This document shows, piece by piece, positions 23,477 to 26,708 of a stretch of 64,000 bases of DNA. The notes under the pieces were generated by a model. The model searched no databases. It worked only from the letters and a program-made list of their open reading frames with translations, and was not told the origin of the DNA. A program made the translations under genes and the position numbers. Position 1 is the first letter of the stretch. Each line of letters opens with the position of its first letter. The DNA is from Natrialba asiatica DSM 12278 (GTDB taxonomy: Archaea > Halobacteriota > Halobacteria > Halobacteriales > Natrialbaceae). The stretch is taken from contig NZ_AOIO01000021.1 of assembly GCF_000337555.1 (NCBI RefSeq), positions 271,853 to 335,852 of the forward strand, written 5' to 3'.

Positions 23477-23758
23477 TTACTCGGCGTCGGAATTCGAGTC
23501 GGACCGGTTGGGGTCCGGCGGGGCGACGCGACAGCCGCAGGGGCCGGCGACGGCTTCGCCGGGGCCGATCATGGTTCGCTGTGCGATCGGCGTCCCACAG
23601 CGGGGACAGCGGGGGAGGCTGACGGTCTCCGGTTCGTCCGTCGTCTCGGTGCCGTTGCTAGCCGCGTCGGTCGCAGTACTGTTGCTCTCTACGTCGCTTT
23701 CAGTGCCGCCACTAGCCGCATCGCTCGCGGTCGCGTCGTCGGTCACGCCGACTGGCAC
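23477..23758 (-). CDS. Small zinc-ribbon protein
   Basis: The 93-residue protein has an N-terminal low-complexity Asp/Ser/Thr/Ala half and a C-terminal zinc-binding part: C-P-R-C-G near residue 51 and C-G-C near residue 74, giving a C-x2-C...C-x-C set. Such short cysteine-box proteins are frequent in haloarchaea and largely uncharacterised. It is transcribed away from the structured element at 23842-23978, so the region between holds both promoters. No partner gene is apparent. Confidence 0.6.
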   Translation of the reverse strand: MPVGVTDDATASDAASGGTESDVESNSTATDAASNGTETTDEPETVSLPRCPRCGTPIAQRTMIGPGEAVAGPCGCRVAPPDPNRSDSNSDAE

Positions 23759-23832
23759 CTCAATTTGCCCGTCCGGTTGACAGAGCGCGTTGCTACTGGT
23801 CGACTCCGTCGATGCATCAATCGTGCGGGATG

Positions 23833-23839
23833 TTTATAT
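23833..23839 (+). promoter_or_regulatory. TATA box in front of structured element 1
   Basis: TTTATAT lies so that an archaeal start site 25-28 bp downstream would fall at about 23862, exactly where the base-pairing segments of the element begin. The second copy at 26567 lacks such a box. Confidence 0.5.
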
Positions 23840-23841
23840 CC

Positions 23842-23978
23842 CGTGAGAATGTACGCAATCATGGCTTCACCGCATGTGTGGAAGCCACGTCTCGGATGGT
23901 GGCTCATCCGGGACACTTTCATGTCCGTTGTGGCTTCCGTCCTAATTGTTGACTGGTAGTGACTTATATCTACCGCTG
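23842..23978 (+). ncRNA. Structured non-coding element, copy 1 (three-way junction)
   Basis: This 137-bp element has no credible protein frame but folds cleanly. Stem P1 pairs 23880-23888 (GGAAGCCAC) with 23930-23938. It encloses hairpin P2 (23893-23898 with 23905-23910) and hairpin P3 (23911-23915 with 23922-23926). A further hairpin P4 pairs 23955-23959 with 23970-23974. An upstream segment (23862-23870) can pair with 23878-23887, competing with P1. A related element at 26567-26708 keeps P1, P2, P3 and P4 with compensatory changes. The TATA box is at 23833. It could be an independent RNA, a leader for the ABC operon 600 bp downstream, or the end of a mobile element. Confidence 0.55.
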
Positions 23979-24127
23979 GGCGGCGGGAAGGAGCGTTCGT
24001 CCGCGATAGAACTCGCGTCGCTCTCGGCCGAGAATCGTCGTTCGTACTAACGGCAGAGGATGCAGATAGGGCGTAGCCGCATCGTAACCGAGTTCACGGA
24101 TCGAAGCCGACGGCGAAACCAGCTTCT

Positions 24128-24149
24128 GTACCGCCGTTCTCGGCGGTAC
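24128..24149. repeat. Perfect 9-bp hairpin
   Basis: GTACCGCCG (24128-24136) and CGGCGGTAC (24141-24149) are exact inverted copies around a 4-nt TTCT loop. It lies in the non-coding region downstream of element 1 and is not followed directly by a T-run. Confidence 0.6.
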
Positions 24150-24257
24150 GAACCGGGCCGGGACGCGGATATCCAACCGCGAAGTCGCCACGACCGAAAC
24201 GATTATGAATATCGGTTCCGTGATGTCAGCTAATGGTAACGCTGTAGCTGGGTCGGC

Positions 24258-24263
24258 TTTTTT
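24258..24263 (+). terminator. T6 run, possible transcription terminator
   Basis: Six T follow GGGTCGGC. Archaeal RNA polymerase terminates at short T tracts without needing a hairpin, so a transcript begun near 23862 could end here at about 400 nt. Confidence 0.35.
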
Positions 24264-24586
24264 CGCTCGGGCTGCTTTGCGTAGACCACGCACTGTAGTC
24301 GGAGCGCCAGCTACGTGATCGTCGTACTACGTTCTCCGTAGTGTAGACAACCATGATAGTCAAGCCGACAATACATGTTACCAGCAACCAATCAGCGAAC
24401 TCGCGGCGCTCGTCCGAGCGCCTTCGAGTCGAATCGACACCTTACCCCGGACCACCGCTCCAGCCGGACGCATCGAATCGAGCGGTCCTTCTTCGACACC
24501 GAACGTGACGGGGATGACTCGCCCATCCCGCTACGCAAACGAGACGGATTCCGAAATCGGCGATTCGCCGCCGGCGGGGGGCGCTG

Positions 24587-25600
24587 ATGGCGCGACACAG
24601 CAGTGCGGAAACGGCCGTCGATCCGGTCATCTCAGTCCGCGACCTCACGAAGGTCTACGGACAGGGAGACGCTGCAGTTCGAGCGGTTGACGGCGTCAGT
24701 TTCGATATTTCTCCCGGTACCGTCGTCGGCGTTCTCGGCCCGAACGGGGCGGGAAAAACGTCGGCGATCAAGATGATGCTGGGGTTAGTCACTCCGACGG
24801 CCGGCGACGTTCGGATCGCCGGAACGGACGCACTCTCGAATACGACGGCGATCTATCGACACGTCGGTGCGATGCTAGAAGGTGCCCGCAACGTCTATTG
24901 GCGGCTCACGGTCCGCGAAAACGTCGAGTTCTTCGCGAGTCTCAGCGGCTTCGACCCGAGGCGGACCGCGGATTACCACGACGCGCTCATCGAACGGTAC
25001 GGACTCGAAGACAAGGCCGACACGCCCGTCCGGGAACTCTCGCGCGGAATGAAGCAGAAAGTCTCCCTTATCTGCACCCTGGCGCGGCGAACGGACGTGA
25101 TCTTCCTCGACGAGCCGACGCTCGGGCTCGACGTCGAAACGTCGCTCGACCTCCGGCGGGAGATACGGCGGCTTACGGACGACCGTTCGATGACGGTCGT
25201 GCTCAGCAGCCACGATATGGACCTCGTGGAAGCCGTCTGCGATCGCGTCATCATCGTGCGCGCCGGGAGAATCGTCGCGGATGACACCGTCGAGAATCTC
25301 GTCGAACTCTTCCGGACGCAGGCGTACCAACTAACCGTCGGATCACCGCTTTCGGAGGCGGCGAAAGGCCGACTCGAGCACAGATACAACGCGCAGGGCT
25401 GGGAACGGATCGGCGAACACGTACGGTTCGAAGCAACGCCTCGATCCGACGATTCCGTCTACACTCTCGTGGACGAACTCCAGCGGGAGGCCGTCCCGCT
25501 CGTTTCGATCCAGTCACTACAGCCGGATCTCGAGAACGTCTTCCTCGAACTGACGACCGAGGCGGCTCGGCCGAAAACTCAAAACGGAGGGGAACGATGA
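24587..25600 (+). CDS. ABC transporter ATP-binding protein (DrrA-like exporter)
   Basis: The 337-residue ATPase has Walker A GPNGAGKTS, a Q-loop region at YRHVGAMLEGARN, signature LSRGMKQKV, Walker B VIFLDEPTLGLD and the switch histidine in LSSHDMD. The extended C-terminal part (about 235-337), found in DrrA/NatA/CcmA-type exporters, follows. It powers export of an unknown substrate with the permease encoded next (4-bp ATGA overlap). The gene pair is bracketed by two copies of a structured non-coding element, suggesting it is a discrete cassette. Confidence 0.92.
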   Translation: MARHSSAETAVDPVISVRDLTKVYGQGDAAVRAVDGVSFDISPGTVVGVLGPNGAGKTSAIKMMLGLVTPTAGDVRIAGTDALSNTTAIYRHVGAMLEGARNVYWRLTVRENVEFFASLSGFDPRRTADYHDALIERYGLEDKADTPVRELSRGMKQKVSLICTLARRTDVIFLDEPTLGLDVETSLDLRREIRRLTDDRSMTVVLSSHDMDLVEAVCDRVIIVRAGRIVADDTVENLVELFRTQAYQLTVGSPLSEAAKGRLEHRYNAQGWERIGEHVRFEATPRSDDSVYTLVDELQREAVPLVSIQSLQPDLENVFLELTTEAARPKTQNGGER

Positions 25601-26370
25601 ACGCCCTGCTCACGTTGACGCGAGCGGTCGCACGCAAGGAACTCGTTCTAATGGTTCGCTATCCGGTTAATACGCTCTCGAATCTGTTCCTGACCTATCT
25701 CTTCTTCGTCCTGATCTTCTTCGGCGGGCAGGCGGTCGCGGGTCCCGCGCTCACGGCGTCTCTCGACGGGATAATCGTCGGCTTCTTCCTCTGGACGATG
25801 GCGTCCCTGTCGTTCGGCTATCTCGCGTGGTCCGTGACGGCGGAAGCGCAGTGGGGAACCTTCGAGCAGTTGTACATGACTCCGTTCGGCATCCGAACGA
25901 TAATGCTGGTGAAAGCGGCCGTCGGGACGACCATCAACTTCGGCTGGGGTCTCGGTATGTTGCTCCTGCTGTTGGTGACATCCGGCCGGTCGCTCCAGGT
26001 GGATCTCGGGACGGTTCTCCCGCTCGGCGCGCTCACCCTCGCCTCCGCGGTCGGTATCGGGTTTTGCTTCGCGGGACTTTCGATCCTGTACAAACGGATC
26101 GAGGACCTACTGAGCGTGGTAAACTTCGCGCTTGTCGGGTGCATCGCCGCACCGGTCGAATCGGTCGCCTGGTTGAAGGCGATCCCCCTCGCCCAGGGGA
26201 GCTATCTTCTGCGGCGAACGATGGACGGAGGAATCCGTCTCTGGGAGATCCCCGCGCCGGAAATCCTGCTACTGGTCGGTACCGCGATCGCGTATCCCGC
26301 GGCCGGCTACTACGTCTTCCGGTGGGCACAGCGCCGCGCCCGACGAAAGGGCATTCTCGGTCACTACTAG
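25597..26370 (+). CDS. ABC-2 type transporter permease
   Basis: The 257-residue protein has six hydrophobic segments in the ABC-2 pattern and a charged, Arg-rich C-terminus (RRARRKGILGHY). It forms the membrane pore for the ATPase whose gene overlaps it by 4 bp. The substrate is not readable from sequence; relatives move drugs, lipids, polysaccharides or sodium. No further operon gene follows; non-coding element 2 starts about 200 bp downstream. Confidence 0.88.
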   Translation: MNALLTLTRAVARKELVLMVRYPVNTLSNLFLTYLFFVLIFFGGQAVAGPALTASLDGIIVGFFLWTMASLSFGYLAWSVTAEAQWGTFEQLYMTPFGIRTIMLVKAAVGTTINFGWGLGMLLLLLVTSGRSLQVDLGTVLPLGALTLASAVGIGFCFAGLSILYKRIEDLLSVVNFALVGCIAAPVESVAWLKAIPLAQGSYLLRRTMDGGIRLWEIPAPEILLLVGTAIAYPAAGYYVFRWAQRRARRKGILGHY

Positions 26371-26566
26371 CCGCTGAACTCGAGCGACGCGCTCCCCTTT
26401 TGGATCGTTCACGACCGTCGAGTTCAGTTCGGTACGGGACGGTTTCCCGGGGACGATGTCAACACCGTGCCGAAAGAGCCGATCGCGGCCGCTGCGATGG
26501 CTATCGACGCGATCCAGGGCAACTAGTTGTCGTACCGTTTCGGTCGCGGCCGCCTTCCTTCTCTCT

Positions 26567-26708
26567 CGTGAGAATGTACTCGATCGTGGCTGCGTCCCCT
26601 CGCCGGCTCGGAAGCCGCGTCTCGGTTGTCTCAGCAATCAGGACACCCTACGTCCGGTTAGCGGCTTCCGTTCTACTTGTTGAATGTAGCAACGCATCTC
26701 TACCGCTG
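26567..26708 (+). ncRNA. Structured non-coding element, copy 2
   Basis: This element is related along its whole length to 23842-23978: identical CGTGAGAATGTAC start, shared CGTCTCGG core and shared CTACCGCTG end. P1 pairs 26610-26618 (GGAAGCCGC) with 26661-26669, differing from copy 1 by an A-U to G-C exchange on both strands. P2 pairs 26624-26628 with 26635-26639 (an A-U to U-A exchange plus one G-U). P3 pairs 26641-26644 with 26652-26655. P4 pairs 26686-26689 with 26700-26703. No TATA box is seen at the corresponding upstream position, so it may be silent or read from the ABC operon. Confidence 0.5.

Follow-up and report, generated by a model that had tools for sequence, protein, structure and literature searches.

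A structured mRNA leader widespread in haloarchaea, with two mutually exclusive folds at the start codon: a candidate translational switch

Introduction

Two related sequences flank a pair of ABC exporter genes in the window, that is, the whole 64,000-nucleotide stretch of Natrialba asiatica DSM 12278 DNA analyzed here. The original prediction, made from the DNA letters, took both to be RNA elements built around a three-way junction, made from the plus strand and bracketing the exporter. The locus raises the questions of whether structured RNAs are encoded here, from which strand they are read and on what they act. In this study, the observation was partly confirmed and the interpretation partly supported. 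The best overall explanation of the sequences is probably a cis-acting, minus-strand mRNA leader that carries a switch at the start codon.

Results

Alignment of the two elements confirmed that both exist and are homologous. About 15 copies are present in the N. asiatica DSM 12278 genome. Copy 1 is 80-89% identical to 11 of the others over nearly its complete length, and genomes of the same genus contain up to 20 matches each at E<=0.001. Resemblance of this extent is far beyond chance. The whole window gave no match to Rfam 15 at the gathering score, in agreement with the earlier statement that no haloarchaeal RNA family of such shape is known, and ten loci returned chance-level Rfam matches only (E 0.1-0.9), none of them to a cis-regulatory family. 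The leader RNA is undescribed in the literature searched, in which subscription journals and preprints were thinly covered, and this absence is no proof. Both elements of the window are members of an unnamed family of structured mRNA leaders that is widespread in haloarchaea.

The junction consists of helices P1, P2 and P3, and the helices and their covariation are directly supported. In 21 copies drawn from the genus and one near relative, 99.3% of the cells of the hand-drawn structure are paired. In two larger alignments, both fitted to the structure, the pairing is retained through sequence change: among 99 diverged copies found with model R2, 97.1% of the cells are paired, double changes occur at 14 of the 21 pairs and double-change cells number 131 against 39 in shuffles, and in a 48-row cross-family alignment (model R3), one row of which is an opposite-strand artefact, double changes occur at all 21 pairs, with 144 double-change cells against 29 in shuffles. 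None of 500 shuffles matched the observed values. Pairing fell to about 40% when partner strands were slid by one base. The covariation of P1, P2 and P3 thus far exceeds chance and bears out the view that selection acts on RNA structure. The check proposed with that view, a covariance-model search for homologues elsewhere and for covarying pairs, found both and supports an RNA family. The region upstream of the AUG is not a reading frame because its segment lengths represent all three phases, and protein coding across the junction was ruled out on this ground.

The RNA is read from the minus strand. Wobble pairs in related sequences number 103 G-U against 32 A-C on this strand, and since the wobbles would be A-C if the plus strand were read, the minus strand is the RNA strand. 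The p-value computed from these counts is optimistic because of the kinship of the sequences. Model R2, built from 21 copies with copy 1 included in the seed, scores copy 1 at 84.7 bits on the minus strand versus 23.6 bits on the plus strand, and model R3 gives the copy 1 leader 73.1 bits. Single-sequence folding alone is weak (z about -1.5 on the plus strand, -3.6 and 0 on the minus strand). A small four-cysteine zinc-ribbon gene adjoins 13 of the 15 own-genome copies and is oriented opposite to the strand first proposed; because these genes point that way, the intact copies are leaders read on the minus strand. The conserved structured RNA therefore sits in an mRNA leader, as a riboswitch does.

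A TATA-like box is present in 81 of 84 family copies, and in 79 of them its center is found 28 nt upstream of P1's first G. This spacing, likewise observed directly, indicates that transcription should start at about P1. In copy 1, the probable TATA box of the leader transcript is AGATATAAG (23963-23971, minus strand), assigned from the fixed spacing and sequence reading. The TATA box that had been ascribed to copy 1 (gtttatatcc) is actually the loop and 3' arm of a hairpin, P5, within an upstream ORF. The similarity of the two elements at their outer limits is real, but CTACCGCTG, their common end, lies directly next to the actual promoter, and CGTGAGAATGTAC, their common start, is part of the coding sequence of the upstream ORF. 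In the same way, of the RNA extent first drawn the junction stands, and the portion within 23743-23862 belongs to the upstream ORF. Distinct palindromes lie just upstream of the RNA, near the expected promoter, before several SWIM-type and other leaders (L159, L160, L162, L170, L171 and L172; examples are TTACTACGTGGTAA and AAGACACGTGTCTT); these are perhaps operators for gene-specific repressors.

An intact copy has the order TATA box, three-way junction, short variable hairpin, GAAGCC-AUG, short ORF and zinc-ribbon gene. In copy 1, all of these are on the minus strand. The structured leader (23860-23942), delimited by R2, R3 and covariation, ends with the start codon (AUG) of the upstream ORF. 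Strand A, the 5' arm of P1 (GGAAGCCAC, 23930-23938), the P2 hairpin (GGACAU-GAAA-GUGUCC, 23911-23926) and the P3 hairpin (CGGAUG-6 nt-CAUCCG, 23893-23910) were placed by alignment and model. Strand B, the 3' arm of P1 (GUGGCUUCC, 23880-23888), was placed by A:B and B:C covariation, and strand C (GAAGCC, 23863-23868), directly 5' of the AUG, by B:C covariation and sequence reading. The upstream ORF (39 aa, MIAYILTGYKHPARL..., 23743-23862) has a stop codon that overlaps the start of the small zinc-ribbon gene (GTGA), and this gene (CPRCGTPIAQRTMIGPGEAVAGPCGCRVAP, 23477-23746) has an alternative start at 23758 according to the ORF list. P5 (CGGGAU-AUAAAC-AUCCCG, 23826-23843) lies inside the upstream ORF and was recognized by sequence reading and by its stem, the arms of which change jointly in relatives (e.g. 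CGAGAC/GUCUCG in L031). It is clear in the window's family and in several others, and not clear in the SWIM-type members examined. Hairpins with an A-rich loop about 20-38 nt past the A of the AUG occur in many members (the window at 23826-23843; L150, L151, L158 and L177), and codon 10 of many members almost always encodes K, E, N or R. Such a hairpin may aid start-codon selection or be a component of the switch.

The sequence of strand A recurs in strand C, which lets strand B pair with either of them. B and C change in concert in distant families: GGCUUC/GAAGCC, GGUCUUC/GAAGACC, GGUGUUC/GAACACC, UGCUUCUCA/UGAGAAGCA, GGCUUUC/GAAAGCC and GGGUUC/GAACCC. This covariation is not a fitting effect because C is unpaired in the model. 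When C was exchanged between members, a test used in place of a composition shuffle, B:C complementarity fell in all permutations (0 of 2000 reached the observed value), and the result holds without the common AAGCC type. The B:C pairing is only 3-4 bases long in a few members. Since B covaries with both A and C, two mutually exclusive folds are conserved, and, as in riboswitches, the alternative helix involves the initiation region. Its place at the AUG is directly supported: strand C lies immediately before the AUG in nearly all members, those with unrelated genes included. The calculated energies of the two folds are similar (mean difference -2.5 kcal/mol, sd 5.0), as computed for 37 C and standard salt rather than molar KCl. 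Judged from sequence comparison, the two-fold pattern is that expected from a bistable leader.

The upstream ORF that opens at the AUG encodes 28-79 aa in the window's family and mostly begins with M[IFL]AYIL[PT]GYK[RH]PAR. Its stop overlaps or abuts the next start in all 72 copies in which the zinc-ribbon gene was found, at -1, -5, -7, -8 or -14 nt from that start when the nearest start codon is chosen. Single overlaps prove little, since length-keeping shuffles overlap in 60% per copy; it is the consistency over 22 ORF lengths that counts. The same layout occurs with other second genes in other families (L158, L217, L238 and L240). In G200 (family f4), at least seven near-identical copies (L238, L242, L244 and L246-L249) have the leader before a zinc ORF of 44-45 aa, with a cysteine-containing ORF of 174 aa overlapping the latter at offset -1. 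In L164 (G276), a weak member, the gene behind the upstream ORF starts at offset -1 and is PadR-like by eye.

The zinc-ribbon protein has no name in Pfam or NCBIfam. Distant members of the leader family precede genes for SWIM zinc-finger and other small proteins, and the AUG next to the RNA is the start of the gene itself in SWIM-type members. On two annotated plasmids, one of Haladaptatus pallidirubidus and one of Haloprofundus halobius, the CDS was deposited with the AUG of the RNA as its first codon. The SWIM zinc finger (PF04434) was matched by the L155 and L174 proteins at 20.8 and 22.5 bits (cut-off 19.6); other SWIM-like assignments were made from the CxCx(n)CxH pattern alone. The proteins behind the L159 and L160 leaders have no cysteines. 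Haladaptatus plasmids (NZ_CP085339.1, NZ_CP085302.1 and others) carry SWIM zinc-finger genes at up to 24 places per plasmid.

Of 392 Halobacteria genomes searched with model R1, 99 had matches at E<=0.01, and 68 of these 99 belong to the window's family. The zinc-ribbon type of leader can be assigned to Natrialbaceae from an annotated Natrinema plasmid. With lower certainty per hit, R3 supports members in seven more haloarchaeal families (f4, f5, f6, f9, f12, f14 and f17), among which a genome has up to at least 19 copies. The large searches scored few candidates per genome and the copy numbers are lower bounds; weak lone matches near E 1e-3 are candidate members only. Leader copies total well over a hundred in the genomes sampled, and every match in a 393-genome sample of the phylum falls within families of the window's order. 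R3 gave no significant match in the stretches examined around SWIM or related genes carried by Haloarcula, Halobacterium and Halalkalicoccus plasmids (L191-L193, L195 and L197), around one on a Haloprofundus plasmid (L196) and around a Haloterrigena turkmenica zinc gene (L190), so the leader does not precede all such genes. Phage records and viral contigs yielded no SWIM relatives.

Copy 2 (26585-26673, minus strand) is a decayed relic of a leader. It lacks a TATA box and a downstream zinc gene, one pair of its P3 is broken and its AUG has become ACG, as in its orthologues in the sister genomes G004 and G005. Both elements are retained in these two genomes, at distances of 1.1 and 1.8 kb, and tblastn for the ABC gene in their matching 10-kb stretches found none. 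The bracketing of the exporter is thus incidental and the suggested link to it is unsupported; an element of the ABC operon was rejected because the exporter is missing at the G004 and G005 loci. The exporter pair between the elements (24587-26370) was either gained here or lost in these two same-genus genomes.

Discussion

Our best reading is that the leader is a new riboswitch-like translational switch. That the element is a cis-acting leader is nearly certain, and bistable control of translation by this leader is quite probable on the sequence evidence. Transcription from the TATA box would start at about P1, as the spacing suggests, and the first part of the leader would fold as the three-way junction with A:B as P1, together with P2 and P3. 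Strand C could pair with B instead and form a hairpin ending at the AUG, in which case initiation would be hindered. A ligand, ion or protein that stabilizes the junction would let A hold B and leave the AUG free, and we consider it rather likely that the junction is the ON state. The ribosome would then translate the upstream ORF and pass on to the zinc-ribbon gene via the stop/start overlap. Elsewhere among haloarchaea, the AUG would in many cases open the regulated gene directly, for a SWIM zinc-finger or other small protein. Since the approximately 15 copies in the genome have a common leader, they probably answer to one common signal.

That signal might be a small molecule or ion, to which we give slightly less than an even chance, and zinc is a tempting guess. 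In its fullest form, which we put forward tentatively, the proposal is a natural riboswitch class restricted to haloarchaea and working in molar salt, which would sense one small molecule or metal ion and control initiation right at the start codon of numerous unlinked genes for zinc proteins, often via a coupled upstream ORF. Alternatively, an RNA-binding protein, either the encoded zinc protein or one common regulator, might flip the same switch, which is conceivable but rather doubtful. Almost all of the downstream genes code for small cysteine-rich proteins, and autoregulated ribosomal-protein leaders are known, including in Halobacteria (PMC7247131). However, one RNA stands before clearly different proteins (zinc ribbon, SWIM and the cysteine-less L159 and L160 products), and such unrelated gene types under one RNA argue against proteins binding their own leaders. 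The small cysteine-rich products would suit either way of control, by a common ion or metabolite or by an RNA-binding protein.

It is very unlikely that the element is a free-standing small RNA with a function separate from the adjoining gene. The high conservation of the junction and the orphan copy 2 could be taken that way, but strand C is held directly at the AUG in nearly all members, even with unrelated genes, and the orphan copy is decayed. The original prediction had proposed a free-standing RNA made from the plus strand at the supposed TATA box of copy 1; what the evidence favors is a cis-acting minus-strand leader. The end of a repeat or MITE-like transposable element is still less probable, even though there are about 15 dispersed copies and up to 24 SWIM-gene places per Haladaptatus plasmid: the strands covary as RNA around the start codon, the similarity spans promoter and leader and extends into the gene as in gene paralogues, and neither sharp shared ends nor terminal inverted repeats were found at the element, so that a transposon end was rejected. 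A plus-strand RNA with a TATA box at about 23832 is scarcely credible, since its weak model matches (23.6 and 26.5 bits) arise because paired arms look alike read in reverse, and G-U bias, model scores, promoter spacing and gene orientation all point to the minus strand.

If the leader is the switch proposed here, mutually exclusive folds next to the AUG of small, mostly zinc-binding proteins would look like a natural on/off control of translation. Through the family, extensive groups of paralogous small zinc proteins that have received little study are joined under a signal that is probably common to all. It also makes haloarchaeal translation control testable on leadered mRNAs without an evident Shine-Dalgarno sequence before the AUG, and its carriers include the culturable genera Natrinema, Haladaptatus and Haloprofundus.

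Among archaeal riboswitches, the crcB/fluoride class was the one with experimental proof as of 2021 (PMC8241225). Like translational riboswitches, the haloarchaeal leader has a structured 5' region and an alternative helix able to hide the start region; unlike them, it has no Rfam match and its alternative strand abuts the AUG itself. It also differs from most metabolite riboswitches in that it does not precede transport or biosynthesis genes. Ribosomal-protein leaders, including the S15 leader of Halobacteria (PMC7247131), are likewise cis-acting RNA structures in archaeal mRNA leaders, whereas the present leader is not found before ribosomal protein genes. Haloarchaea have a family of small CPxCG zinc-finger proteins, of which Brz regulates bop transcription (PMC2253796). 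The leader-associated genes also code for small CPxCG-type zinc proteins; the zinc ribbon has no Pfam or NCBIfam name, and the literature consulted describes no such leader for Brz. The synthetic theophylline switches of Haloferax volcanii (PMC8241225) are similar in that a helix hides the start codon in one state; those switches were engineered, whereas the haloarchaeal leader is natural.
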